Of a stretch of DNA of 28,961 nt, positions 2,228 through 22,458 are shown in pieces (position 1 is the first letter of the stretch; each line of letters starts with the position of its first letter). The stretch comes from a virus: positions 1 through 28,961 of the IMG/VR virus record IMGVR_UViG_3300030380_000325, one strand, 5' to 3'. The position numbers were made by a program, and so were the translations under genes. The notes beneath the pieces are model-generated. The model was not told the DNA's origin. It did no database searches and was given only the letters and a program-made list of their open reading frames with translations.

Positions 2228-2422
2228 CTACAATTTTTGTAACAGAACTACAATCACACCACCCATACCTGTCATAACAGCACCCATAGAAACTAAAAGT
2301 ATTCTTTCAATTCTAGTTATGTGATTTTGTAGTTGGTTCATTCTATCGTAGGTTTGTTTCTGCATGATACGGCACAGTTTTTCGTGTGATTCTATTTTTT
2401 GTAATGCGCTATCTCTTGGCAT
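2228..2422 (-). CDS. Small membrane protein, coiled coil plus one transmembrane helix (possible holin, XhlA-like)
   Basis: A 64-residue protein. Residues about 8-40 are polar and heptad-like (KIESHEKLCRIMQKQTYDRM and on), followed by a single hydrophobic helix at 41-61 (ILLVSMGAVMTGMGGVIVVLL) and a short basic tail QKL. This coiled-coil-then-helix layout resembles XhlA-type holin-like proteins, known by layout rather than residue identity. It is the last gene of the late block; its ATG follows the stop of the 646-aa gene in a TAATG overlap arrangement, with AAAGGA about 11 nt upstream. A holin or a membrane anchor for lysis is plausible from size, topology and place, but no endolysin is seen beside it, so the function is inferred. 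Confidence 0.7.
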   Translation of the reverse strand: MPRDSALQKIESHEKLCRIMQKQTYDRMNQLQNHITRIERILLVSMGAVMTGMGGVIVVLLQKL

Positions 2423-4362
2423 TATAGTATTAATCCTTTTAAAAAAAATTGAACTGTTCTATATACAAAAGTCCAACCTGTTTTTAATGTTCTTTTTTTA
2501 CCAGTTCCAAATGCAACGTAGTCTTTAAATTCTTGATAATGATTTTTAGCATTACCTTGTTCAATAGCTTTTTGACCGTAGTATCTGTAACCTTTTCTTA
2601 CAGCCTCACCCCACCATGTTCTGTGTAAATTTTTAACACACCAACGAACAGCTTCTCTTTTTGTATTTTTTGTAAAGGCACCAGAGTTAACAGCATGAGT
2701 TGCAATAACACAGCCGCCACCGCCGCCTCTATCGCCACCGCCGCCTCCTTGACTTGGAGGTCCAGATGGTCCTGTGGTAGCTGTGCCTCCTTGACTTGGA
2801 GGTCCACTAATTCCAGTTGGTGATCCACCTACATTTTCATTGCCAAAATCTGCTGTTCCTGCATCTGCTCCTCCAGGTTTGTCTGTTGGACCAGTTGATT
2901 GAGGACTACCTTGACCAGCAGGGCCACCTACTCCTGCATCTCCATAATTACCAGTGGGGCCACTAGGTCCAGAGCTAGTCCCAGGGCCATCACCACCAGG
3001 TTGATTTTCTTCTGCATCTACACCTGGATCTGCATAACCAGGGTCGTTAAATTGTGGACCTACTGGACCTATATCTACACTTGGACCATCAGAGTCATCA
3101 TCAATTGGATCTTCATATCCGAAAGGATTATTTATATTTGTTGGAGCATCAGTTATTGGGTCACCACCTGTTAATGCAACTTCATTTTCATAATCTGGTG
3201 CATCTATTGGAGTGCCTCCTAATGTTTCAGCTAACTCATTTAATTTATCTGTGGTATCATCAAATATTCCATTTGAAGTTCTTTCCTCTAATCTGTCTTG
3301 AACCGTTTCTAATGCACCTTTACCAAATGCGGATACCGCATTGTATCCATCCATAACTCCACCTGGGCCATAAGCTTCATCTATTGCAGATTTTTGATCA
3401 TCAGTGTATCCTTCGTATTCTAATTGTGAGACTGATGGTTTTGATGTTATTGCATCAAATATTAAACTTACAGGTCCACCTGCAATTGCATTTATTGCTA
3501 AAGATCCTAAAGTTTTACCAACATTTAATTTTTTACCAAATACATCTACAGTTTTGTTTGTTGCATCTACAATAGCTCCTGGTATCTTGCCAAGTTCTGT
3601 CAATGCTCCTTCAACAGTTTGACCTGCTTTGTTTAAAACATTTTGAACGGTGCTTTCTTGTTCTGGTGTTTCAAATGATGGTGTGTAACTAGCTAATCTT
3701 TCTTCATCAATTTTAGCTTGTGTAAGATCTGCTTGAGTTATTCCTGGAATAGATGGTTGTTGTAAATAATCAAAAGGTCCTGCTACCATAGGTTGATCTC
3801 CTACATTTATAGAACCTGGATTCTGTGATGGGTCACCTGCTTCATTTATATCAAAAACATCGACTGGTCCTCCAATAGTTCCTGGAGTATTTGGCTGTAA
3901 TATATTTTCTATACTAGCAGCTGGATTATCAAAATCCATAGGTTCGTCATATGGGTTTTCGTAAGTCATAATATTTTCCATTTCAATTGGATCACTGGTT
4001 ATGCCGCCTGTATCGGTAGGCATAGCAAACTCATCAATTTGATCAGATGTAATATCTGTTGTTATTGGTGTACTAGGTGTAATAGTTGCCGGAGTCTCGA
4101 CTCCACCGCCACCTCCTCCATTTGCAGGTGATCCAACGGCTGGTGTTGTTGCTGTTGGTGTCATAGGTAGTTGACCGCTGTATAAAGCATATAGGTCATC
4201 TAAATAACTTGTTCGTGTTGGATCAAATTGTATACCTGCATAATCTGGAACATCTGATAATAATTCTTCTCTTGTATCTGTAGTTGTTCTCAGATTAGAT
4301 GTATCTATACTAGGATCTAGTAAACTTGGATCTACAATAAATGATTCAAAATCTGTTGCCAT
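2422..4362 (-). CDS. Gly/Pro-rich virion-associated protein with CFI-box-like C-terminal domain
   Basis: A 646-residue acidic protein. Residues 1-235 are low-complexity, rich in Asp, Thr and Pro. About 240-330 hold an Ala/Gly-rich helical stretch (QTVEGALTELGKIPGAIVDA, then GKTLGSLAINAIAGGP). About 390-550 form a collagen-like Gly-Pro-Ser region with repeated SGPSGPTG and SGPPSQGG units, ending in a glycine run. From C551 a compact cysteine-containing domain begins CVIATHAVNSGAFT and continues with REAVRWCVKNLHRTWWGEAV. The CVIAT start resembles the CFIATA 'CFI-box' C-terminal domain found on many secreted or surface proteins. Its start shares one base with the stop of the 1288-aa gene (TAATG) and has AAAGGGG upstream. 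It is likely a virion or injected protein; the exact job is unknown. Confidence 0.75.
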   Translation of the reverse strand: MATDFESFIVDPSLLDPSIDTSNLRTTTDTREELLSDVPDYAGIQFDPTRTSYLDDLYALYSGQLPMTPTATTPAVGSPANGGGGGGVETPATITPSTPITTDITSDQIDEFAMPTDTGGITSDPIEMENIMTYENPYDEPMDFDNPAASIENILQPNTPGTIGGPVDVFDINEAGDPSQNPGSINVGDQPMVAGPFDYLQQPSIPGITQADLTQAKIDEERLASYTPSFETPEQESTVQNVLNKAGQTVEGALTELGKIPGAIVDATNKTVDVFGKKLNVGKTLGSLAINAIAGGPVSLIFDAITSKPSVSQLEYEGYTDDQKSAIDEAYGPGGVMDGYNAVSAFGKGALETVQDRLEERTSNGIFDDTTDKLNELAETLGGTPIDAPDYENEVALTGGDPITDAPTNINNPFGYEDPIDDDSDGPSVDIGPVGPQFNDPGYADPGVDAEENQPGGDGPGTSSGPSGPTGNYGDAGVGGPAGQGSPQSTGPTDKPGGADAGTADFGNENVGGSPTGISGPPSQGGTATTGPSGPPSQGGGGGDRGGGGGCVIATHAVNSGAFTKNTKREAVRWCVKNLHRTWWGEAVRKGYRYYGQKAIEQGNAKNHYQEFKDYVAFGTGKKRTLKTGWTFVYRTVQFFLKGLIL

Positions 4363-7300
4363 TACGCCATTCCCCTTTGTCTTAACCTTATAGCTTGTTC
4401 TTCAGGACTTAGCAATGCTTGTTCTGATGGTGTCAGGCCTGTCTGTGTTACCGTTGCCTGTTGCACCGGTTGTATCATTGCTGGATCTACGTCTGGTGTT
4501 GGTGGCAATGGTGCTTGTGACATGTCATCTACAGGTGGTAAATACTCATCTATATTAATATCAAATTCATCATCAAAAGATAAGTCTCTTAATTCATCTT
4601 GTATCTCTAACAATACATCTCTTACTTCTTCAAATGGATTGTCTACACCAATACGTTCTTCAATTTGTCTAAACTCTCTTTGTATGTTTTCTGATGGAAA
4701 GAATGGTGTGTATATATCATTGTCTAATCTATTGTATAAATTAATTAGTTGTCTTTCTCTAAACTCAGTTCTAATATTATCCATGTCTGTACCTAAAATA
4801 TCTGCAGCTTGAATGTTTGAACGCATTTTTTTATCATTATTAAATTTAGCTTTGTTAGCTACAATAAATCTTTCAATAACATCTCTTCCTGTTTTAGGTC
4901 CACCTTTTAATAGTGATTCAGACCCTCCAGTAAATAATGCTCTTGCTTCTCTGTTACCTCTTTGATAGTCAGAAATTTTAAAACCCATAGATCTTACAGG
5001 ATCTATCTTAACTTGTCTGTATCCTAAAAATCCTGTCAACTCATCTGGTAATTCAAAGAATTCACCACGCTCTGATGGTTTGTCAGCTGCTGCTTGATAT
5101 AATCTTGTAAGTTGTGGATAAGAAAACGGTAACATAGATTTTCCTAAATGTTCAATCATGTTTTTGATTGCAGTTCCTGGTTCATTTTGCATTTGTGCTT
5201 CAGTATAAATTTGTCTGCCTTCTCTAGTTTTACCACCTCTTGCAATTAAATCTAATATTGCTTCAGTATAAATTGCTTCTGATATAAATGGTGATGCAAG
5301 TTCACCAGCAGCTTCTGCCATACCAGTCATAATACCTTTCATTAATACATCTTCATTTGTTATACCTTGTTGAATATTATTAAGTAAAGTTTGAAAAGGT
5401 CTAATAGCTGTATCGTATGCATTACCATGACTAAAATCTATATATTTTAATTCACCTGTTTCTTCGTCTCTAATAGGTATAATTGTAGAATTTTTAGACC
5501 ATTCAGGTAAAAATTGTTTTAATGCACGTAACTCTTCATTAGTTACATTATATAAACCTTGTGCTCCTTTTTGTATTCCATATGGAGCTGCAGCTAATAC
5601 AGTTGTCATACCTGCTAATCTTTTTAAACCAATAGATCTTAGTGCAGGATCCTTGATTTCTTTAATAGATCTTTTTGCGATGTTAGTTGTTGTTCTTAAT
5701 ATTTCAGATGGAAACGACATAAACGTTCCAAGTGGTAGACGTCTTAAAGCTCTTACAGTATCTGATACATAAGCATAATTTGGTACAGTGTTTCTTACAA
5801 TACCAGCTGCTTCTTCTTTTAATTGTCTTTCAGTAAATTCTTTACCTACTTTAGTATATGCACCTCTAAGCCTTTGCATCTCTACAGCATAGTTTGCTAT
5901 TTTAAATAAGTCATCTTCTGCTGTATATAAATCTTCTGCAAACTTCATACCTGATTTTAATTTTCTACCTGTTCCTGATGTTAATTTTTTCATCATAGAC
6001 TCTAATGGTTTTCCAATATTTAAATTTTCACCCATACGAGTATCCGTTAATAGATTTTTTATATCTCCTAATTGTACTTGTGAATTTACAACACCAAGTT
6101 CTAGTAATTCTCTATATGCTTCGTTAGCTTCAGCTGATTTTTTTCCTACTTGTAATTGACCAAATGCGTCTCTAAATGCTCTGCCCACAACTGCAGGATT
6201 TTCAAATAAAATACCATTACCAGCAGAAAAAGCAGTAGCAGAAAATAAATTTCTAAAGTGTGTTTGTGGTGATAAAATTGTTTTTGCAACTTGTGATGCT
6301 GCTTTTGGAAATAATACTAAATTTCTGTATCCCCATGTCAATCCTTTTTCAATACCAGTTGCACCTTCTCTAGGTTCAAATAAAAATTTTAAAGTTTTAG
6401 TGCTATCCCCTAATCCTTCAGCAATAGCTTTAGTAGTAAACTTACCTGCTAGTGGGTTAATAGTAAACTCATCTTTAAAATATGGTGTCATGTATCTATC
6501 TAATTCTACTATTTCTTGATTAGGTAATGCTTCTGCTGCTTCTAATGCGTCATCAAAAAAGAAACCTCTTGATCCACCTGGTGTGGTTGCAGTAGCTGCT
6601 TTTTTAATTGCATCATCTTGTTTTGCAATTCGTTCAAACAATTCATTTTTTCTAGCAATGTTAGATAACTTTGTCATGCTGTTATATATAGAAAATCTAG
6701 GGTCTTCTATTTCACCAAACAATTTTTTTATAACTGCTCTATCTTTACCAGGTGTTTCAGCTAATAAACGTTCTGGTTTTATGTCATCTGTTACTACTCT
6801 TTTAAAAAATTTATCTATCTGTGGTCCTTCTTCTGCTAAAGTTCCTTTTGCAAATTTTATAGGTAAGCCTGGAGGTGCTTTTTGATTTTTTGCAGATTTT
6901 ATTACAGAATCAACCATGCTTTGTGCTTGAAAGTCTGTTAGGTTTTTACCATTTTCTTTTGCATATCTTTTAAAATATTCTTTCGTGCCTTTAATTGCTT
7001 CTTCTGTTGGTGTGTAAGCTAAAAAAGGTAACATAGATTTATCTTCAAATATTCTATAAGTGCTACCTAAATAATCTTTTACTCTTTGACCCATTAATGT
7101 TTTTAAAGTTTGTACATCTTTAGGTGCGTTTGATGATGCATTAATTAAATCTACAAATTTTTCTCTTGCACCACCTATTGCTTCAAATATATTTTCTATA
7201 GATTCATCTGTTGCACCATTATCTTTTAAAAATTTATGTGTTCTAGCTGCTGCACTGCTTGGAATAGCTTTACTTAATTCACCTTCAAATAAAATATCAT

Positions 7301-8228
7301 TTAATTGTTTATATACATCTGCTTTTCTTTTGTCGGATGATTTATCTAATACAGATTTTACCGTTGGAAACATACTGTCTACTTCAGAATCAATTGTTTT
7401 AACCAACTCCATGGCTCTGTTAGTATCAGCCATAGTAGCACCTTTTTCTGCCATCTTAGCTTCAAATATTGATTGTGGTTTTGCACCTCTAGCTCTTAAT
7501 GCAGAAAATGTTTTATTAAAAAATTTATCTAATTTAGAATTACTAAACTCTATGTTTTTACCACGTGTGGCTGCAGCTTTTATTCCTTTACCAACACCAT
7601 ACACAACTGGTGTTATTAATAAAGATTCTGCACCAAATTTTGTTCTGTTCATTAACTTTTTAAATGCATCTTCTCTACCACCTTCATCAGTTACTTCTTC
7701 TAAATCTGTTGGCCCAGCTTCAAACACATCACCAAAAGTTCCAAGTTCTTCTACATCAGCAACAAATGCTTCACCTGCTGCCCCTCCTGCAACCCCTGCT
7801 ACAAATCTTCTTTTACCAATTGTTTTATTAAAATCGTCTGCTTTTTTTGCAGCTTTCTGTAAGTTAGTGTTTCTAAGATTCATGTAGTTACCAGCTTTTT
7901 TAGCTTTAATTGCTTTGCTAGCTAGTTTAAAACCTATACCACCTGGTACACCTATTTGAACTAATCCTTCTGTAAGTCTACCTATTGCTGTATCATTTGC
8001 AATGTCTTCAAACACATTAACTTTATCAAACAATTGTTCAACATCTGCTGCAAGATCTGTATCAAAACCTAAATCAATTAATTCTGCACCAAGAGATATA
8101 ACACCTTCAGGTACTTTTATTGCACCTGAAACTACTCCTGCTAAAGCAGAAGTTATAGCACTTCTTTCACTATTGATTTCTTCGTCTCGTAGGGAGGTAA
8201 AGCCTTCTGGATCAATAAGCTCAATCAT
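4362..8228 (-). CDS. Very large virion protein, candidate internal/DNA-ejection protein
   Basis: A 1288-residue protein, the largest of the window. The first 220 residues are Ala/Gly-rich with amphipathic segments such as SALAGVVSGAIKVPEGVISL, FVAGVAGGAAGEAFVAD and TPVVYGVGKGIKAAA, which could associate with membranes. The middle is long, mostly helical and charged. The end turns acidic (FDDEFDINIDEYLPPVDDMS) and Pro/Gln-rich. I see no lytic transglycosylase or peptidase motif. Size, composition and a place downstream of tail genes and before a holin-like gene recall the ejected internal core proteins of T7- and P22-like podoviruses, but there is no recognisable homology. An AGGAGGA ribosome site overlaps the TAG stop of the previous gene and sits well spaced from the ATG. 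Confidence 0.75.
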   Translation of the reverse strand: MIELIDPEGFTSLRDEEINSERSAITSALAGVVSGAIKVPEGVISLGAELIDLGFDTDLAADVEQLFDKVNVFEDIANDTAIGRLTEGLVQIGVPGGIGFKLASKAIKAKKAGNYMNLRNTNLQKAAKKADDFNKTIGKRRFVAGVAGGAAGEAFVADVEELGTFGDVFEAGPTDLEEVTDEGGREDAFKKLMNRTKFGAESLLITPVVYGVGKGIKAAATRGKNIEFSNSKLDKFFNKTFSALRARGAKPQSIFEAKMAEKGATMADTNRAMELVKTIDSEVDSMFPTVKSVLDKSSDKRKADVYKQLNDILFEGELSKAIPSSAAARTHKFLKDNGATDESIENIFEAIGGAREKFVDLINASSNAPKDVQTLKTLMGQRVKDYLGSTYRIFEDKSMLPFLAYTPTEEAIKGTKEYFKRYAKENGKNLTDFQAQSMVDSVIKSAKNQKAPPGLPIKFAKGTLAEEGPQIDKFFKRVVTDDIKPERLLAETPGKDRAVIKKLFGEIEDPRFSIYNSMTKLSNIARKNELFERIAKQDDAIKKAATATTPGGSRGFFFDDALEAAEALPNQEIVELDRYMTPYFKDEFTINPLAGKFTTKAIAEGLGDSTKTLKFLFEPREGATGIEKGLTWGYRNLVLFPKAASQVAKTILSPQTHFRNLFSATAFSAGNGILFENPAVVGRAFRDAFGQLQVGKKSAEANEAYRELLELGVVNSQVQLGDIKNLLTDTRMGENLNIGKPLESMMKKLTSGTGRKLKSGMKFAEDLYTAEDDLFKIANYAVEMQRLRGAYTKVGKEFTERQLKEEAAGIVRNTVPNYAYVSDTVRALRRLPLGTFMSFPSEILRTTTNIAKRSIKEIKDPALRSIGLKRLAGMTTVLAAAPYGIQKGAQGLYNVTNEELRALKQFLPEWSKNSTIIPIRDEETGELKYIDFSHGNAYDTAIRPFQTLLNNIQQGITNEDVLMKGIMTGMAEAAGELASPFISEAIYTEAILDLIARGGKTREGRQIYTEAQMQNEPGTAIKNMIEHLGKSMLPFSYPQLTRLYQAAADKPSERGEFFELPDELTGFLGYRQVKIDPVRSMGFKISDYQRGNREARALFTGGSESLLKGGPKTGRDVIERFIVANKAKFNNDKKMRSNIQAADILGTDMDNIRTEFRERQLINLYNRLDNDIYTPFFPSENIQREFRQIEERIGVDNPFEEVRDVLLEIQDELRDLSFDDEFDINIDEYLPPVDDMSQAPLPPTPDVDPAMIQPVQQATVTQTGLTPSEQALLSPEEQAIRLRQRGMA

Positions 8229-12665: not shown

Positions 12666-13028
12666 TTATGTTGTAACTGTTCTAGGCAGTACTTCCATAG
12701 CAGATAGGATCACATGAAGCCTGTTTGCTGCAGATGCTGATACTTTTATAATGTCTCCAGTTTCAGCCACTAAAGTTTTACTTAATACTTCTATTGGGTC
12801 TCCGGCTTGTCCCTGTGCCCCTTCAATTACTTTTTGAAAAGCAATACTAAAAACAGCGTCACTTGAATTAGTTAGGGTTATGTTTAATTGAGCCGATTGT
12901 CCTGATGCATCATCATTACTTACTAATATAGACTTTATTATAGCCGTTGTTGCAGCGGGTACTGTATATAAAGTAAATGTTGCATCTGACGTAATATCTA
13001 CTTTTTTACTTATAAAACTATTGGACAT
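12666..13028 (-). CDS. Small beta-rich structural protein, paralogue of the 121-aa protein at 22093-22458
   Basis: A 120-residue protein rich in alternating hydrophobic and Ser/Thr residues, probably a beta sandwich. It shares the pattern LYTVPAATTAIIKSILVSN (20-38) and the ending ETGDIIKVSASAANRLHVIL followed by SAMEV with the gene at 22093, which reads MYTVASSTTTVILGLVLTN and then ETTDILRVDCSVADKLSGTL and SIMEI. The two are therefore paralogues at the two ends of the tail-fibre region. Such small beta proteins act as decoration, neck or fibre-attachment proteins in other phages; which applies here is not known. The ATG overlaps the stop of the 55-aa gene (TAATG). Confidence 0.78.
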   Translation of the reverse strand: MSNSFISKKVDITSDATFTLYTVPAATTAIIKSILVSNDDASGQSAQLNITLTNSSDAVFSIAFQKVIEGAQGQAGDPIEVLSKTLVAETGDIIKVSASAANRLHVILSAMEVLPRTVTT

Positions 13029-15361: not shown

Positions 15362-15661
15362 CTACGGTTTAGTTGGCCACGTAGCGTTTGTACATTTAGC
15401 AACAGTGTCTTTACCATCAGGTAAATCTCTAAGAGCTTGTCTGTAAGTTTTCATATCAGATGATATAGCATTACCTTTTTCAAGTTCCGATGTAATTTCC
15501 CAATCAGATGCTGCTAAAAGACGATCTCTTTTAGATCTTAGATCCGCTAAAGCTCTAGCAGGAGCTGCATTAGCCCAAGCCGCTTCTTCATTGTCTCTAG
15601 CTGTCTCTTCAGCTGCTGTAAATTGTACTCTGTTACCATTTATATTATGATATCTTGGCAT
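15362..15661 (-). CDS. Phage tail assembly chaperone-like protein, copy 1
   Basis: A 99-residue charged protein. Its core, DLRSKRDRLLAASDWEITSE (40-59) and YRQALRDLPDGKD followed by WPTKP at the end, matches the pattern of the phage tail assembly chaperone family (LRxxRdxLLxxsDW...YRqaLRdlP...WPxkP). These proteins usually sit beside tail-fibre genes and help fibres fold or attach. A second copy lies at 17589-17885 with the same pattern. AAGGAG precedes the ATG at a good distance. It ends the tail-fibre cassette and lies just before the tail hub gene. Confidence 0.8.
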   Translation of the reverse strand: MPRYHNINGNRVQFTAAEETARDNEEAAWANAAPARALADLRSKRDRLLAASDWEITSELEKGNAISSDMKTYRQALRDLPDGKDTVAKCTNATWPTKP

Positions 15662-15691
15662 AGTTTTCTCCTTTGGTGTTATGTATCATTA

Positions 15692-16327
15692 TTATAGAAT
15701 TCCGTAAAGGCAAATATCTCCAGCATCTATGTTGCCACTATCCATTTTAAATTGAACAGCATCTATAGCTGCAGTTACATTACAATATCCTGCTACATAC
15801 CAATTTGAAGTATAGTTATTATATCTATATCCTTGAAAGTTAGAGATAAAATGCTTAACAAAAGTTGTTGATGATGGATTGAATAAATGTAAATACCCAC
15901 TGCAAGATTGATCGTTGTCAGCACCTAATCCTTCAAATAGATATTGATCTCCTGTTCCATTTGCTAAATCATAATCTCCAACATAACCTAATTGAGTATT
16001 ACTACCTCCTTCATTATAACCACTCCTAAAAGCTGTGGTAGTTTTAGGTGCATCATAATCTGTTCCACCATCTCTAAAATTTACCATTAAACTTTTATTA
16101 TCTGTAGATGGATGAATATTTTTAAAAGTAAATAAGTATTCCTTGTAGGTATTATCCAAGACAACTGAACTTGCACCATCAACAAAAGATAAGGTAGAAG
16201 AAGATGATGCTGTTAGCTTTTTAATAAACACCATGTTACCACCAACAGCTGCAACAGATCCAAAAGTCGTAGCTGCTCTAGCTCCTCGGTCATTTACTGT
16301 AATTAATCCTGAAGTAGGTAATGTCAT
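15692..16327 (-). CDS. Tail-fibre tip domain protein, array member A
   Basis: A 211-residue member of the six-copy array. It shares TASSSSTLSFVDGASSVVL, KNIHPST, DLANGTGDQ, SGYLHLFNPSSTTFVKHF and the end AIDAVQFKMDSGNIDAGDI followed by CLYGIL. It resembles member E (18910) most in SGYLHLFNPSS and AGYCNxTxAIDAVQFKM. The N-terminal 30 residues differ from all others, as expected if they attach to different partners or bases. The start codon sits in AAAGGACTCATAATG: the ribosome site is formed by the codons of the last residues (KDS) of member B. Likely part of a receptor-recognition or fibre-tip complex. Confidence 0.7.
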   Translation of the reverse strand: MTLPTSGLITVNDRGARAATTFGSVAAVGGNMVFIKKLTASSSSTLSFVDGASSVVLDNTYKEYLFTFKNIHPSTDNKSLMVNFRDGGTDYDAPKTTTAFRSGYNEGGSNTQLGYVGDYDLANGTGDQYLFEGLGADNDQSCSGYLHLFNPSSTTFVKHFISNFQGYRYNNYTSNWYVAGYCNVTAAIDAVQFKMDSGNIDAGDICLYGIL

Positions 16328-16965
16328 TATGAGTCCTTTATTCCATACATTTTAAAAGTGCCAGCGTCTATGTTACCGCTATCCATTTTAAATTGTACTC
16401 TGGTAAGAGCTGTTGTTGTGTTAAAGTATCCAGCACTATATCTAACTTCTGAATATGGTGGAGATCCATTTGTCATACCTTGAACAGTTGCTAAAAAATG
16501 CTTAACAAAAGTTGATGACGATGGCGAAAAAAGCCAAAGTTCACCACTAGCAGATGAATCATTATCATTTATTAAATCAGTTCCTAAATTTTGAAAAGCT
16601 GTACCTTGAGCTTGGTCGTATGATCCATCATAGGAAAGAGCATTGTCATCATCTTCTTGTTGATATGCTTTAAATTTAGAACTGGTAACTGTTATATTAT
16701 AACTTGTGTTAGTTCCTGTATCTACTTGAAAAGCTAATCTAGCACCATTTGTTCCTGGATGAATATTAATAAACTCAAACTTATAAATAGGATAAGTATT
16801 ATCTAACACAACACTAGATGCCCCATTTACAAAAGACAAAGTACCTGAACTAGAAGCTGTTAAAGTTTTAATATGTACCAGTGCACCTGGATTATTTCCT
16901 GTTACTGCTGCAGGAACCGTGGTTAGATTTCTAAGAGATCTATCATTATATTTAACTAATGCCAT
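16327..16965 (-). CDS. Tail-fibre tip domain protein, array member B
   Basis: A 212-residue member of the array. It carries TASSSGTLSFVNGASSVVL, INIHPGTNG, YDQAQGTAFQ, SGELWLFSPSSSTFVKHF and RVQFKMDSGNIDAGTFKMYG ending IKDS. Its first half and its KDS ending resemble member F, but TDTGTNTSYN-type and TTTALTRVQFKM segments are closer to member G, so it looks mosaic. The ATG overlaps the TAA of member C. Its final codons AAG GAC TCA also provide the ribosome site for member A. Confidence 0.7.
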   Translation of the reverse strand: MALVKYNDRSLRNLTTVPAAVTGNNPGALVHIKTLTASSSGTLSFVNGASSVVLDNTYPIYKFEFINIHPGTNGARLAFQVDTGTNTSYNITVTSSKFKAYQQEDDDNALSYDGSYDQAQGTAFQNLGTDLINDNDSSASGELWLFSPSSSTFVKHFLATVQGMTNGSPPYSEVRYSAGYFNTTTALTRVQFKMDSGNIDAGTFKMYGIKDS

Positions 16966-17585
16966 TATGATTGTTTCGGCCCCACTCCGTACATTTTAAT
17001 TGTTCCTGATTGTATAGTTCCAGTATCTTGACTAAATTGAATAGCATTAATTGCTGATGTTGTATTAGCATAACCACCTAAAAATAATTCTTGAGAATAA
17101 GCAGTAGATACTTGTTGAGTTGTAGCAATAAAATGTTTTACAAATGTTGTTGAAGATGGATTAAATAAAGTTAAAGTGCCTGACATAGCTGTATCATTAT
17201 CTGCATCTGTATCTCCACCTAATCTTTGAACCCCAGTTCCTTGTGCTAAATCTCCACCAGTGCTATATCCTAGTCCACCTGTACTACCACCACTTTCAGC
17301 ATGATAACTAGCAAAAAATGTTGTTGTTTTTGCAACATTATAATTAGAGCCACCATCTGCACTTAAATTAAATTGTGGTCTTGATGCTTCAGATGGATGT
17401 ATATTTATAAACTTAAATAAATAACTATTATAAGTAGAGTTTATACTTGATGTAAAAGATAATGTAGCAGAACTTGATGCTGTTGCTGTTGTAAGCAAAG
17501 TCAAATTACCATCAGTCAAGGCTGCCGCTGTAGGCAACGCTGTGATTGCTGTTAGTGCTCTGTTGACTGCAGTTCGGATAGCCAT
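16965..17585 (-). CDS. Tail-fibre tip domain protein, array member C
   Basis: A 206-residue member of the array with TASSSATLSFTSSINSTY, INIHPSEAS, GDLAQGTGVQRLG, SGTLTLFNPSSTTFVKHF and a more divergent end IQFSQDTGTIQSGTIKMYGV followed by GPKQS. The SSSATL...TSxIxSTY segment is closest to member G. It starts 3 bp from the end of the 98-aa chaperone-like gene. Low-complexity Thr/Ala sequence fills the first 30 residues. Confidence 0.7.
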   Translation of the reverse strand: MAIRTAVNRALTAITALPTAAALTDGNLTLLTTATASSSATLSFTSSINSTYNSYLFKFINIHPSEASRPQFNLSADGGSNYNVAKTTTFFASYHAESGGSTGGLGYSTGGDLAQGTGVQRLGGDTDADNDTAMSGTLTLFNPSSTTFVKHFIATTQQVSTAYSQELFLGGYANTTSAINAIQFSQDTGTIQSGTIKMYGVGPKQS

Positions 17586-17588
17586 AGG

Positions 17589-17885
17589 TTACTCCGATGG
17601 TTTAGTTGGAAACTCTTTTGCGTTTACTTTTTCTACTGTATCTAACCCAGATGGTAAATCTCTTAATGCTTGTCTATAAGTTTTCCAATCATCGCTCATA
17701 GTTACATCTGAGTTAGCCATCCAATCTGTTTCATGTAACAAACTGTTTCTTTTATTTCTTAAATTTTCCAATGCTCTATCTAAAGCACCATTATTCCATT
17801 GAGTATCTATATTTTCTAAAGCAGTAATTTCATCTGCCGTTAAATCTATTTTAACTCCATCTATTAATTTGTGTGTATGTGCCAT
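17589..17885 (-). CDS. Phage tail assembly chaperone-like protein, copy 2
   Basis: A 98-residue protein with the same family pattern as copy 1: ALENLRNKRNSLLHETDWMA (38-57), YRQALRDLPSGLDTVE and the end FPTKPSE. It lies directly after a two-domain fibre gene, with whose stop its ATG overlaps (TAATG), and directly before array members C, B and A. In the other half of the duplicated cassette the same place is taken by the 101-aa gene at 20867, of different sequence. It probably helps assembly of the fibre encoded before it. Confidence 0.8.
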   Translation of the reverse strand: MAHTHKLIDGVKIDLTADEITALENIDTQWNNGALDRALENLRNKRNSLLHETDWMANSDVTMSDDWKTYRQALRDLPSGLDTVEKVNAKEFPTKPSE

Positions 17886-18877
17886 TATGCTACTCCGTAT
17901 AAAGTAAAAGTTCCACTAAATGTTCCACTAGCTGGTATTATTTTAAAATTGTTAACAGCCGCAGATTGATCTAATGCAAAAGTATGATCTTGTTGAACAA
18001 GTTTATTATTTTCGTCAAAATGACAACCATAACATTTAAAAAATTTACCTTTTCCTGTTCCTAATGGATCAAAAATAGTAATTATACTCATACCACCTTC
18101 ATTATTATTAGTACCTACTCCATAGCCTGTTCCAACTATTCTAACTCTATCATCTCCTGTACCATGACCAGATTTTATTGCATCGGATGATGTATCATCT
18201 CTACTATGTTGTCTAATATTTTTATAATTACTTCCTGTTTCATAAGAACTTCCATTATCTGTTGAGGTTTGTATTCCTAAATTTCCACCATCACTTGACA
18301 AATCAATAGCTGTACAATGAAGTTGGTAAACTTTATAAGTGGTTGTTAAATATGTACTTGTAAATGTAACAGCTGATGCACTAGATGCTGTTTGACTTTG
18401 AAGTTTAACCATAGAACCACTAGCTTTAATTAAACTATAATCAATTCTTTTTAATACTCCTGCATCTGATACTAAAAATTCGTCCGTGTCTGCAGGCTCG
18501 TCTGTCAAAGCCGTTTGAGCTGAAATAACATCTGTGTTTAATTTTGCACCTGTAACTGCATTAGCTTGTAAACTTGCAGTTTTTACAGTATCGTCCGACG
18601 GATGGCCGAGATCGAGCGTATCACCCAAAATAGTGATGAAGTCGATAGAGTCAGACGATGTTAATGCCGAGGCGAATACAATCGTACTGCCTGAAATAGT
18701 ATAGGATGATATAGGAGCCTGTAGGATACCATTTAGTGACACTAAGCAGTGTTGGGCTGTTTGTGGAAATATAGCTACACCTCCAACTAATAAGTTGAAT
18801 GTATCTGTAGCACTTGTCGATATTGCATCACAAGCTTGAAAATTCCCAAGTCTAGGTTGAGCGCCAATGTAGGCCAT
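17885..18877 (-). CDS. Two-domain tail fibre D: MAYIG-type N-terminal anchor fused to an array-type tip
   Basis: A 330-residue protein. Residues 1-150 are the tail-fibre base also present at 21174: MAYIGxQP, a beta domain, then VTGAKLNTDVISAQTAL and PADTDEFLVSDAGVLKRIDY. From about 155 a different tip begins, SMVKLQSQTASSASAVTFTS, ending NNFKIIPASGTFSGTFTLYG. This ending matches the final strand pattern of the six single-domain array members, so the tip is a divergent copy of that fold. The fusion links the stand-alone proteins to true tail fibres. The tip carries three or more cysteines (HCTAI, KCYGCHF), unusual among its neighbours. AAAGGAG precedes the ATG. Confidence 0.8.
   Translation of the reverse strand: MAYIGAQPRLGNFQACDAISTSATDTFNLLVGGVAIFPQTAQHCLVSLNGILQAPISSYTISGSTIVFASALTSSDSIDFITILGDTLDLGHPSDDTVKTASLQANAVTGAKLNTDVISAQTALTDEPADTDEFLVSDAGVLKRIDYSLIKASGSMVKLQSQTASSASAVTFTSTYLTTTYKVYQLHCTAIDLSSDGGNLGIQTSTDNGSSYETGSNYKNIRQHSRDDTSSDAIKSGHGTGDDRVRIVGTGYGVGTNNNEGGMSIITIFDPLGTGKGKFFKCYGCHFDENNKLVQQDHTFALDQSAAVNNFKIIPASGTFSGTFTLYGVA
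18424..18463. repeat. 40-bp direct repeat at fibre domain junction, copy 1
   Basis: These 40 bases (starting CTTTAATTAAACTATAATCA) are identical to 21647-21686. In both fibre genes they encode the end of the base module (AGVLKRIDYSLIK) immediately before unrelated tips. Upstream of the repeat on the coding strand, identity drops to scattered third-position differences while the protein stays alike; downstream, the proteins are unrelated. The abrupt edge suggests a recombination junction for exchanging tips. Confidence 0.8.
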
Positions 18878-18909
18878 GTTATATTACTCCTTTTAAATTG
18901 TTTATCATA

Positions 18910-19551
18910 TTAATTAATTCCGTACAAGGTTATAGTTCCAGCATCTATGTCGCCAGAGTTCATCTTAAATTGAACTGCATCAATAGCACTTGTTGTATTG
19001 CAATATCCAGCACAAAAATTATGTAAGCTATAAGTGCTAATATAATTTTCACTTGTTTGTGCTGTAAAATGTTTGACGAATGTTGTAGAACTAGGATTAA
19101 AAAGATGTAAATAGCCAGAACCACTTGCATCATTTGCATTTCCTATTCCTAAACATAAGCGTTGAAAATCAGTTGATTGAGCAAGATCACCATCATAATA
19201 AGTAACTGAAGCAGCATCATCAGCTTCTGCATGATATGCTCTAAAAAATGAAGTTGTTTTGGTTACATTATAATTAGAGCCACTATCTGTACTCATATTA
19301 ATTTGCAATTGTGTTTCATTTGTTTCTGGATGAATATTATTAAAAATAAATAGATACTCTTTATAAGTAGAATCTATTCCAGATGTAAAACTTATGGTAG
19401 ATGAAGATGATGCTGTTGATTTTGAAATAAATACCATAGCACCACCACTAAAACTTGCTTCAAGATCATCGGCTCCTGAATCAAAACCAATACCTTTACC
19501 TGCGACTGGTGTTAAATTTAAACTGTTGAAATTTAATTTTGATAATGCCAC
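18910..19551 (-). CDS. Tail-fibre tip domain protein, array member E
   Basis: A 213-residue array member starting MALSKLNFNSLNLTPVAGKG, an N-terminus shared with members F and G. It carries STASSSSTISFTSGIDSTY, NNIHPETNE, GDLAQSTDFQRL, SGYLHLFNPSSTTFVKHF and AIDAVQFKMNSGDIDAGTIT followed by LYGIN. It resembles member A most. The start overlaps the TAA of member F, whose KDS codons carry the AAAGGA ribosome site. A 32-bp gap with AAAGGAG separates it from the fibre gene downstream. Confidence 0.7.
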   Translation of the reverse strand: MALSKLNFNSLNLTPVAGKGIGFDSGADDLEASFSGGAMVFISKSTASSSSTISFTSGIDSTYKEYLFIFNNIHPETNETQLQINMSTDSGSNYNVTKTTSFFRAYHAEADDAASVTYYDGDLAQSTDFQRLCLGIGNANDASGSGYLHLFNPSSTTFVKHFTAQTSENYISTYSLHNFCAGYCNTTSAIDAVQFKMNSGDIDAGTITLYGIN

Positions 19552-20219
19552 TATGAGTCCTTTATTCCGTAAAGTTTTATTGTACCAGAAGCCATATTAT
19601 TTCCTGAAAGTTTAAACTGAACAGCATCTACAGCACTAGTCGTATTTCCATAACCAGCAGAATAATTATCAAAAGCACGATCAGAATACTCATAAACTGC
19701 TGTTCTACTTATAAAATGTTTTACAAAAGTGGTAGAACTAGGATTAAATAAATAAAGTTCACCAGATGTACCTTCATCACTACCACCACCTACATTTATA
19801 GATATATCTTTAAAACCTGTTCCTTGTGCTAAATCATGACCAGGCTCATATGTTAATGAAGTATTGCCATCACTTTCTTCATGATAAGCTACAAAAGATG
19901 TAGTTGTTTTTGCAACATTGTAATTAGAACCAGTATCTACACTCATATTAAATTGAAATTTATTAGCACCAGCATTTGAAGATGGGTGAATATTATAAAA
20001 CTTAAATACATAAACAGGATATGTGCTATCTAAAACTACGTCTGAACTTCCATCTACGAATGACAATGTAGAATCCGAACTAGCAGTTAAAGTTTTAATA
20101 AGCGTCATGGAACTTGCACCTGCTGTAGAAAACCCATCTCCATCTGAATTAAATGATAACGCTTTACCTGCAACAGGTGTTACATTAAAACTGTTATAAT
20201 TAAATTTAGATATAGCCAT
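19551..20219 (-). CDS. Tail-fibre tip domain protein, array member F
   Basis: A 222-residue array member, the longest of the six. It starts MAISKFNYNSFNVTPVAGKA and has TASSDSTLSFVDGSSDVVL, YNIHPSSNA, HDLAQGTGFKD, SGELYLFNPSSTTFVKHF and VQFKLSGNNMASGTIKLYGI ending KDS. The SGEL, SAGY and KDS features pair it with member B. It is coupled to G by a TAATG overlap. Confidence 0.7.
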   Translation of the reverse strand: MAISKFNYNSFNVTPVAGKALSFNSDGDGFSTAGASSMTLIKTLTASSDSTLSFVDGSSDVVLDSTYPVYVFKFYNIHPSSNAGANKFQFNMSVDTGSNYNVAKTTTSFVAYHEESDGNTSLTYEPGHDLAQGTGFKDISINVGGGSDEGTSGELYLFNPSSTTFVKHFISRTAVYEYSDRAFDNYSAGYGNTTSAVDAVQFKLSGNNMASGTIKLYGIKDS

Positions 20220-20863
20220 TATAATATTCCATATAGTTTAAATGTTCCTGCATCTATATTACCAGATGCCATTTTAAATCTAACTCTAGTTATAGCTGTT
20301 GTTGTGTTAAAATATCCAGCAGTAAAATCATTATAAGTAGCATCGCCATGTTGATATGTATTAAAAGTTGCCAAAAAATGTTTTACAAAAGTTGTATTTG
20401 ATGGTTCAAAAATATGTAATGTTCCAGCTAAACTTTCATCATTACCATTTCCAACATTTTGAGTAAGAACTTGAAATGAAGTTCCTTGTGCTTGGTCAGA
20501 ACCTGTTTCATATCCTAAAACAGTGTAATTACCAGCTTCATTTTGACCAGCTTTAAATCTAGTAGTAGTCATCGTTTGATTATAACTCGTATTAGTTCCA
20601 GTATCTGTTTGAAACGTAAGAGCTGTATCATTTGTAGCTGGATGAATATCTATGCATTTAATAATATACTCTTTGTAAGTAGAATCTATTCCACTTGTTA
20701 TATCAATAGTTGCTGAACTAGATGCTGTAGTTGTAGACAATAAAACCATATTACCACCAAGATCCCCTGTCTCAAAACCATTGGCACTAGAATTCCATTT
20801 AAGAGCTTTACTAGCTGCGGGTGTAACGTTTATGTTATTAAAGTCGACCTTAGAGAGTGCCAT
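20219..20863 (-). CDS. Tail-fibre tip domain protein, array member G (first in transcription order)
   Basis: A 214-residue array member starting MALSKVDFNNINVTPAASKA. It has TASSSATIDITSGIDSTY, IDIHPATND, SDQAQGTSFQ, AGTLHIFEPSNTTFVKHF and ITRVRFKMASGNIDAGTFKL followed by YGIL. The SSSATx and ITS/FTS-IxSTY segments pair it with member C, while TDTGTNTSYN is shared with B. It starts 3 bp from the stop of the 101-aa gene. No strong ribosome site is visible at the F start that follows it, so coupling is probably needed there. Confidence 0.7.
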   Translation of the reverse strand: MALSKVDFNNINVTPAASKALKWNSSANGFETGDLGGNMVLLSTTTASSSATIDITSGIDSTYKEYIIKCIDIHPATNDTALTFQTDTGTNTSYNQTMTTTRFKAGQNEAGNYTVLGYETGSDQAQGTSFQVLTQNVGNGNDESLAGTLHIFEPSNTTFVKHFLATFNTYQHGDATYNDFTAGYFNTTTAITRVRFKMASGNIDAGTFKLYGIL

Positions 20864-20866
20864 GGG

Positions 20867-21172
20867 TTAGGCTCCAAATAATGCTGCTATTTCAGCATCT
20901 GTTAATGCTTCCCCTGCTTTTAATTTAGCTTTACCTGATGTTTTTGCATTTGCTCTAGCTGTGTCAGCATCTTTTAATTCTTGTATCTTTGCATTAACAT
21001 CAGCCTCACTTGGCATAGTAGCACCATCTTTAATAATCTTAATGTGTTGATATTGCATACGATCTTCGTTAGGAATTTTATCTCCATTGCTGTCATGTGT
21101 TTTCCAACCCCACCAACTGCCACCATTAAATGTCATCAATGCTTTTTGAAAATAATCTTTAGTTTTTTTCAT
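20867..21172 (-). CDS. Small fibre-associated protein, 101 aa, possible assembly helper
   Basis: A 101-residue Lys/Ala-rich protein. The N-terminal half has aromatic residues (FNGGSWWGWKTHDSNGD, MQYQHIKIIKDG). The second half is helical and charged (NAKIQELKDADTARANAKTS) and ends LTDAEIAALFGA. It sits between a two-domain fibre and three array members, the same place as the chaperone-like gene at 17589 in the other cassette half. By size, charge and place it may be an assembly helper, but it lacks the chaperone family's LRDLP motif, so this is inference. GGAGA precedes the ATG. Confidence 0.65.
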   Translation of the reverse strand: MKKTKDYFQKALMTFNGGSWWGWKTHDSNGDKIPNEDRMQYQHIKIIKDGATMPSEADVNAKIQELKDADTARANAKTSGKAKLKAGEALTDAEIAALFGA

Positions 21173-21173
21173 C

Positions 21174-22091
21174 TTATGTATCTCCTAATCTTATAAAAGT
21201 TAACGCTGTGTAATTAACATTTGTATTACCACCATATGTTGCATCTGTTGTTGATGTTCCACTATGGTCAAGATTTAATCTAATATTATTATTAGATGTA
21301 TTAGTTACATCATATATAGTAGAACAATATAATGACATATGACGATTTTGAGCACCTGAGCTATCATAAGTTTGTGAGAGTGATGATATAGAACTTCCAT
21401 TAGTCGAACCCATAATTTGAATACCACAATATGCAAGAGCACCATCATAAGTTTCATCTACATAACTTTGTGCAGAAACAAAATATATTCCTGTACTTGG
21501 AAATGTAAATACTCCTGAAGATTCAGACATACCTGAGCCAATGTATGATGAAATCTTATCATTCCTTTCCCAATTTGCAGTTACTGTACCTGTATCAGCA
21601 ATATCAGCAGTTATTCTCCAGTTATCTGCCATTGTAATTCCACCACCTTTAATTAAACTATAATCAATTCTTTTTAATACTCCTGCGTCAGAAACTAAAA
21701 ACTCATCTGTGTCTGCTGGTTCAGCAGCTAATGCAGTTTGTGCGGATATAACATCCGTATTTAATTTTGCACCAGTTACTGCGTTTGCAGAAACCATGGC
21801 AGCTGTAATACTATTAGTTGCAGGTACAGTTGATTGAATAGCTCTACCTAAAAAAATACAGTACATCACATCTGTCGAAGCTGTGTTTGCTGATAGCGTT
21901 AGGGCAGTACCCGATGCAGTATATGCTTTACCAGATCCAGGATGTTGTCTAACGTTATTTATAAATAATGCAATTTCGTTTTCATTACTAACTGCATGAG
22001 ACAGAGTATAAGAAGACGTTGCTGACGTAGAAAAATTCTGTGTAGCGAATGTAACAAAGTTGTCTGTAGGTTGATTCCCGATATAGGCCAT
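21174..22091 (-). CDS. Two-domain tail fibre I: MAYIG-type anchor with C1q/TNF-like tip
   Basis: A 305-residue protein. Residues 1-150 are the MAYIG base module shared with the 330-aa fibre at 17885 (MAYIGNQPTD, ALFINNVRQH, TGAKLNTDVISAQTAL, DEFLVSDAGVLKRIDYSLIK). Residues about 155-305 resemble a C1q/TNF-like jelly roll: NWRITADIADTGTVTANW, FTFPSTGIYFVSAQSYV, YCGIQIMGS, and the closing VNYTALTFIRLGD. Such domains form trimeric tips that bind surface ligands. The base module presumably joins the tip to the tail. Its start follows the 121-aa beta protein by 1 bp, and it heads the duplicated cassette in transcription order. Confidence 0.8.
   Translation of the reverse strand: MAYIGNQPTDNFVTFATQNFSTSATSSYTLSHAVSNENEIALFINNVRQHPGSGKAYTASGTALTLSANTASTDVMYCIFLGRAIQSTVPATNSITAAMVSANAVTGAKLNTDVISAQTALAAEPADTDEFLVSDAGVLKRIDYSLIKGGGITMADNWRITADIADTGTVTANWERNDKISSYIGSGMSESSGVFTFPSTGIYFVSAQSYVDETYDGALAYCGIQIMGSTNGSSISSLSQTYDSSGAQNRHMSLYCSTIYDVTNTSNNNIRLNLDHSGTSTTDATYGGNTNVNYTALTFIRLGDT
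21647..21686. repeat. 40-bp direct repeat at fibre domain junction, copy 2
   Basis: Identical to 18424-18463 over 40 bases. It lies at the end of the base module of the C1q-tipped fibre, next to the GGG linker. The pair is about 3.2 kb apart in direct orientation, so recombination between the copies would delete the 101-aa gene and array members G, F and E while joining the base of one fibre to the tip of the other in frame. Confidence 0.8.
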
Positions 22092-22092
22092 C

Positions 22093-22458
22093 TTACGTTA
22101 TCTCCATAATGCTCAACGTGCCAGAAAGTTTATCTGCAACGGAACAGTCTACTCGCAATATGTCTGTAGTTTCCATAACAACCTTACCACCCGTTAAGAC
22201 CTCCAAACTCGAACCCGCGGGAATGTTTACGTCCTTCACTAGAAATGAAGTTCCATTCGCAACGTTGTTAGTTCCATTACGGTTTGCTGTATCACTAACA
22301 AGTTCTACTTCTGCTGTAACTGAAGTTGTGTTTAAGTTAGTAAGAACTAAACCAAGTATTACTGTAGTAGTACTTGATGCTACCGTGTACATGACATAAG
22401 GCGTACCTGCTGATGCGGGTTCTGCTGCGAAAGTCACACATTTGAACGTATTTGCCAT
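22093..22458 (-). CDS. Small beta-rich structural protein, paralogue of the 120-aa protein at 12666-13028
   Basis: A 121-residue protein starting MANTFKCVTFAAEPASAGTP. It shares the order and many residues of the 12666 gene: MYTVASSTTTVILGLVLTN, a beta middle, SLEVLTGGKVVMETTDILRV and the ending SGTLSIMEIT. The predicted fold is a small beta sandwich. A good AGGAGA site precedes the start. It sits between the long 1062-aa fibre and the two-domain fibre and may join fibres to the tail, but no direct evidence supports this. Confidence 0.78.
   Translation of the reverse strand: MANTFKCVTFAAEPASAGTPYVMYTVASSTTTVILGLVLTNLNTTSVTAEVELVSDTANRNGTNNVANGTSFLVKDVNIPAGSSLEVLTGGKVVMETTDILRVDCSVADKLSGTLSIMEIT

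Follow-up and report, generated by a model that had tools for sequence, protein, structure and literature searches.

The window analysed here, that is, the whole stretch of viral DNA of 28,961 bases (35% GC), carries a cassette of tail genes on its minus strand. In transcription order the cassette begins with a MAYIG fibre of 305 aa (21174..22091) and a small gene of 101 aa (20867..21172), followed by three genes for proteins of ~210 aa: G (20219..20863), F (19551..20219) and E (18910..19551). A second MAYIG fibre of 330 aa (17885..18877) and a 98-aa gene (17589..17885) come next, then three further ~210-aa genes, C (16965..17585), B (16327..16965) and A (15692..16327), and lastly a 99-aa gene (15362..15661), beyond which lies a gene for a 715-aa structural protein. 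The coordinates, order and lengths given for the cassette genes in a preliminary description of this DNA were all correct.

The six ~210-aa proteins are homologous to one another (BLAST, pairwise E 1e-37 to 1e-69). All six match phrog_14820, a family without assigned function, across the greater part of the protein (E 1e-64 to 1e-85), as do 100 of 100 aligned relatives, so that the description of them as six tip paralogues holds. No Pfam family scores above its cut-off in the six or in the 100 relatives; C1q gives no Pfam match in the six, and PF07484 none in either the six or the 100 relatives. The motifs said to unite them are looser than was claimed: LFNPSSTTFVKHF is exact in A, C, E and F but occurs as variants in B and G, and GNIDAGTxKLYGI is only approximate in most.

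An AlphaFold2 model of A, computed from an alignment that left out the loci of annotated records (seven rows), is a β-sandwich with a mean pLDDT of 87.8, and from residue 31 onward most values exceed 90. Its matches in BFVD, a collection of viral models, are phage proteins with E-values down to 8e-22, and tail fibre and collagen-repeat proteins appear lower in the same list. Comparison with the PDB by VIA-align gives a C-terminal module of GH32 (Z 8.2, 3.6 Å over 119 residues) and galectin-9 (Z 7.2), both in the range that the tool itself calls common. Foldseek returned nothing from the PDB at E ≤ 0.001, the RANKL/TNF chains in its list being weak rows with low TM-scores, and the sequence searches gave no convincing solved homologue. 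The PDB fold searches thus yielded middling lectin-like matches only, and no trimeric structure good enough to serve as a template for locating an interface. On the model, the phrog_14820 domain is predicted to be a phage fibre-tip fold of the lectin-like sandwich class.

The two MAYIG fibres have their N-terminal half in common (49% over 163 aa), as had been noted, but their tips are of different types. The phrog_14820 domain is found at the end of the 330-aa fibre only (E 1e-11 over the C-terminal 180 residues), where it forms a divergent tip from about residue 152 to 330 whose list of structural matches is much like that of A. The tip of the 305-aa fibre lacks this domain and has no Pfam C1q match. 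For the MAYIG domain of the 330-aa fibre (residues 12-87), a portion of the cyanophage A4 tail is a structural match (9k09_U, Z 8.0, 3.0 Å, 73 residues). Because the modelled fold matches the C-termini of phage fibres and the same domain tips the neighbouring fibre, the proposed relation of the ~210-aa proteins to fibre tips is upheld, and the contrary case, that they are unrelated to them, does not apply.

The small genes following the two fibres had been treated as equivalents, which they are not. The 98-aa protein is a tail fibre assembly chaperone of the Phage_tail_APC family (PF16778, E 7e-12) and a paralogue of the 99-aa protein (48% over 93 aa); the two score 45.5 and 50.7 bits, respectively, against a gathering cut-off of 26.6. 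The 99-aa gene had been called chaperone-like on first reading, and it closes the C-B-A set just as its counterparts do in other pelagiphages. The 101-aa protein, in contrast, is unrelated: neither Pfam, PF16778 included, nor PHROG gives a match up to E 1. It directly follows a fibre of the 305 type in 28 of 29 cases, identifying it as the partner of that fibre's tip. The locus is therefore better parsed as the 305-aa fibre with its 101-aa partner, the triplet G-F-E, the 330-aa fibre with its 98-aa chaperone, and the triplet C-B-A with its 99-aa chaperone.

Loci were gathered with three separate protein queries (the 715-aa gene, A and G) and with the family alignment; genes were then called and runs of the family listed. 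Most contigs were fetched by similarity to the copies in the window and are phylogenetically related rather than independent, and the shuffling tests given below correct for kinship only in part. Among 104 non-redundant complete runs from viral contigs and isolates, 88 consist of three genes, 12 of six, 2 of two and 2 of one. Runs are thus exact multiples of three in 100 of 104 cases, and lengths of two, four or five are nearly absent. Three of the four odd runs can be explained: one (L027) has two genes plus a first copy fused to the upstream small protein, and another two are halves of a single triplet cut by an apparent frameshift (L231), which were counted separately. The fourth, in Lederberg EXVC029P, is truly a single copy. 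Loci retrieved through the 715-aa gene, which were not picked for the family, also carry threes, except at contig ends and in L027. The triplet as a whole is dispensable: of the 40 contigs in which the 715-aa gene is present with 2.5 kb or more of upstream sequence, 28 lack it.

The genes within a triplet are also joined more tightly than their surroundings. Internal junctions of three-gene runs overlap in 166 of 176 cases, usually by one base, whereas junctions after the third gene overlap in 0 of 86. All four internal junctions in the window overlap; F overlaps G, B overlaps C and A overlaps B by one base in the sequence TAATG, and E begins with a GTG start codon within a TAGTG overlap with F. 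Single natural chains joining two or three head domains would have supported a trio directly, but none occurs among the collected copies, the only fusion being that of the first copy in L027 to the small upstream protein.

The preliminary description had paired the six proteins by position, G with C, F with B and E with A. From the six alone this pairing is invisible, as BLAST is ambiguous (E-F, E-G and F-B pair best), and for this reason 342 copies were used. The position, or slot, of each gene in the triplet was put to a vote of its five closest relatives from other contigs. Positions 1, 2 and 3 were kept in 83, 84 and 87 of 88 triplets, respectively (254 of 264 in total), with the votes nearly unchanged when voters were limited to those of less than 70% identity. 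In an IQ-TREE phylogeny of 100 diverse rows the positions require 11, 9 and 6 changes, compared with about 22 when shuffled. The votes are cleaner than a rapid tree of the full 342 copies, in which slot 1 falls into two groups, a pattern to be expected of recombining heads. Once relatives are included the pairing is clear, and all six proteins of the window are called in accordance with it: G and C are slot 1, F and B slot 2, and E and A slot 3.

Not only the positions but also the composition of the set is maintained. Complete sets with one of each slot are found in 84 of 88 triplets, and five triplets have a changed order yet are complete, against 0.35 expected from independent positions. 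In L193 the anchors, the first ~45 residues, are in the usual order, but positions 1 and 2 have swapped their head codes. A naive classifier using 14 head columns assigns 244 of 258 slots correctly in a leave-one-contig-out test; its columns were selected on three-gene runs, making the six-gene runs the only independent test. Of these, 10 of 12 read 3-2-1-1-2-3, meaning that the set is kept complete twice even though the order differs. The related six-gene contigs L052 and L060 have an atypical code and do not follow the slot rule. The conserved unit is thus a triplet of three different subunits, and copies of this family come in obligatory, position-specific threes, a rule that is valid in about a hundred related viruses and was absent from the preliminary description. 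The two sets of three sister genes in the window almost certainly act as matched trios.

Triplets are of two kinds, depending on whether they are followed by a fibre (upstream, U) or by a chaperone (downstream, D). Neighbour votes separate the two perfectly (23 of 23 and 63 of 63), and the preceding fibres differ accordingly in their N-termini, mostly of the 'FATQxFSxSA' kind before U triplets and of the 'GNFQ' kind before D triplets. G-F-E in the window belongs to the U type, and C-B-A to the D type. C ranks only 233rd of about 240 among the relatives of G, placing the two among each other's most distant. Duplication of a triplet in situ is ruled out by this rank and by the U/D separation. 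Each triplet of the window is instead an old lineage that is present in other phages, and two-triplet phages represent an old arrangement, since U and D separate across contigs and G and C are distant. The claim of a duplicated five-gene cassette has to be abandoned, because the small genes are unrelated and the unit is the triplet, present here as two with separate histories.

Set and slot identity are written in different parts of the protein. The anchor carries both, with 88-99% of near neighbours in agreement. Over residues ~43-84, slot identity stays near 0.9 while set identity is largely lost, and in the remaining residues slot identity falls to 0.33-0.57, where 0.33 is expected by chance. 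Accordingly, when the head is considered alone with the anchor removed, U/D identity vanishes and slot identity is recovered in 231 of 258 cases. Pairs of proteins with high local but low overall identity are all of the same slot when the shared segment lies in the anchor, and near chance when it lies in residues 79-107 or 174-203. Since most of the head has little or no slot signal, exchange is widespread. The exchange between B and G noticed earlier is real but is a general phenomenon across slots and phages; the motifs TNTSYN and RV[QR]FKM are found in all three positions.

The slot information that does reside in the head is concentrated at residues 34-38, 49-50, 57, 62-69, 145/147 and 202-211, where it falls on alternate residues. 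Positions 63, 65, 67 and 69 each hold 0.35-0.78 bits, whereas 64, 66 and 68 hold 0.00-0.05. The same alternation is seen at 145/147 and 202/204/206, with the opposite face near zero. A comparison of the two faces gives p of about 1e-4, for faces defined after the pattern had been seen. Within-slot coevolution pairs 32-43 with 200-211, 200-211 with 61-73, and 61-73 with 142-149, each time in antiparallel orientation, so that the four strands lie in a single sheet. The face of this sheet that bears the slot code is polar on average, and the opposite one is mostly hydrophobic, as expected for the core of a sandwich. The U and D sets use mostly the same slot residues. Within the head, then, only the outward face of a single four-strand sheet carries slot identity, and the rest is slot-neutral and swapped between slots. 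A slot-specific sheet face of this kind is the signature of a subunit interface.

The window phage is likely to infect a SAR11-type bacterium, judging from its relatives: its helicase DNA is nearest to pelagiphage HTVC027P, and its 715-aa structural protein to phage 023Pt_psg01 and pelagiphages HTVC027P and HTVC023P. The cassette is not an assembly artefact, as near-identical copies are present in other metagenome assemblies (L083-L085). It also moves between otherwise unrelated pelagiphages. HTVC010P, HTVC034P and HTVC019P, the last a member of the Autographiviridae, have a host strain in common, and each carries exactly one triplet closed by a Phage_tail_APC chaperone.

A slot-specific face, a complete set, a composition kept despite changes in order, and coupled translation are what a 1:1:1 heterotrimer predicts. 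We therefore propose, with a probability of roughly 0.6, that each triplet encodes a heterotrimeric receptor-binding head in which slots 1, 2 and 3 are three non-identical subunits. In the proposed arrangement, the short N-terminal anchor of about 45 residues would assign each subunit to its set and slot, and the outward face of the sheet 32-43/200-211/61-73/142-149 in the lectin-like head would hold together one subunit of each kind. The gene overlaps would couple the synthesis of the three, and the Phage_tail_APC protein encoded after the triplet probably aids the folding or attachment of the downstream head. The other sheet and the loops would constitute the receptor-binding surface, exchanged between slots, sets and phages; free exchange of this half fits a surface under putative diversifying pressure. 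Most likely, the two triplets of the window give rise to a pair of distinct three-part heads with which the phage holds on to the host surface.

Alternatively, the three genes could encode three different obligatory homotrimers, for example stacked or placed at three successive sites on a fibre, each with its own anchor and an interface that does not mix. Phage fibre tips are mostly homotrimers, and diverged homotrimer interfaces would also yield slot-specific anchors and faces. The single copy in EXVC029P points the same way, as it implies that the fold can work without partners. However, reciprocal swaps of head codes (the five order-changed sets, in L193 with unchanged anchors) are hard to explain if heads meet only themselves, and the near-absence of runs of two, four and five would require all three sites to be obligatory. 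Taken together, we regard homotrimers as a serious but unlikely alternative. Three independent proteins directed at three receptors, kept by multivalency or host-range selection without joint assembly, are improbable. Freely varying and recombining loops and second sheet would suit such proteins, as would a cassette common to unrelated phages of one host, but single losses and gains would then be expected rather than multiples of three, and the slot signal sits on one sheet face rather than in the variable part. Recent duplication of a five-gene cassette within the genome, with the number three having no special meaning, would explain the general order of fibre, small gene and three copies in both halves, but is refuted by the unrelated small genes, the low rank of C for G and the perfect U/D separation.

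If the heterotrimeric head is correct, a compact phage genome could carry several binding surfaces and reshuffle them without breaking assembly. The window phage, with two sets and two fibres bearing other tips, would display several different binding surfaces. More tentatively, and with rather less than even odds, the locus may be a combinatorial system, with slot-coded heterotrimeric heads in two orthogonal, anchor-distinguished sets per virion and a binding half that circulates among slots, sets and phages. The interface code would then let natural recombination put any binding surface in any slot. The earlier suggestion of multivalent host recognition, by one receptor-type domain present many times over, agrees well with the fibre-tip fold, the presence of the same domain on the adjacent fibre and the movement of the cassette between unrelated pelagiphages. 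The suggestion that recognition is switchable found no support: the analyses described above, made for other ends, gave no sign of inversion, phase variation or a DGR mechanism.

Among known phages, HTVC010P (gp30-32), HTVC034P (gp37-35) and HTVC019P (gp45-47) have the same phrog_14820 three-gene block with the same closing Phage_tail_APC gene. Theirs is a single D-type triplet, to which the window adds a U-type triplet with its own fibre. Their triplet genes are annotated as hypothetical, and the triplet rule offers a concrete, testable answer for genes so labelled. Pelagiphage host-recognition islands contain tail fibre and C1q-domain genes (PMC3909814) and, in HTVC010P-like phages, appear to be the same kind of region of variable recognition genes; triplets or slots do not feature in the parts of that description consulted. 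Our literature search found no published account of SAR11 cell recognition by these phages and nothing useful on pelagiphage cryo-EM or on virion proteomics of the triplet genes.

The globular head of human C1q provides a structural analogy. It is assembled from three paralogous chains, one of each, whose genes lie side by side, and the sheet through which these chains make contact in the trimer contains the first and last strands. C1q is a eukaryotic immune protein, and we claim no sequence relation to it.

A direct precedent is the virophage DSLV2, whose three consecutive tail proteins fall into position clades. They assemble into a heterotrimer, shown by co-purification, native PAGE and electron microscopy, and this complex binds Synechococcus cells (PMC12724248). 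Both systems have three consecutive co-directional genes of ~200 aa, position-specific clades and fibre-tip-like proteins (PMC12724248). However, the DSLV2 proteins consist of a PF07484 collar and a T4 gp37-type tip, whereas those of the window are predicted lectin-like sandwiches that have neither, and each virophage carries one set of three where the window has two (PMC12724248). The window would therefore work like DSLV2 without being a member of that system. DSLV2 is moreover a virophage and the window a tailed phage, probably of SAR11-type bacteria, whose heterotrimer is predicted from the genes. If our proposal is correct, it would be a second, independent heterotrimeric tail tip after DSLV2, with a different fold and in tailed phages.

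Several related loci carry six consecutive genes of the phrog_14820 family of ~210-residue proteins, and in those of L013, L061, L086, L136, L137, L158, L213, L214, L226 and L007 the position-specific member types follow the slot order 3-2-1-1-2-3. A simple DNA inversion does not account for this order, because all genes of these runs lie on the same strand. Where the upstream gene is visible (e.g., L013, L061, L086, L136, L158 and L007), the run is preceded by a short fibre ending ...YVDSTQGWLLKEK. A short fibre also precedes the six-gene runs of L052 and L060, which have an atypical slot code in which every gene is called slot 1, several at low margins; this is possibly a third, separate code.

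In the window and its relatives, the tip of the 305-residue fibre type is followed by a 101-residue gene (window 20867-21172) in 28 of 29 cases, and its product is probably a tip-specific assembly partner. The fibre region is flanked by a paralogue pair, as the ~120-residue products of 22093-22458 and 12666-13028 both match phrog_1276 (E = 2e-9 and 2e-7, respectively). Elsewhere, 2422-8228 encodes two large proteins of 646 and 1288 residues, neither of which had a PHROG match at E 0.01; they are probably virion or ejection proteins.

The isolate Pelagibacter phage Lederberg EXVC029P (L163) has a lone phrog_14820 family member (5872-6468), very divergent and adjoining the chaperone gene. This single copy provides a natural control on the fold working without partners.
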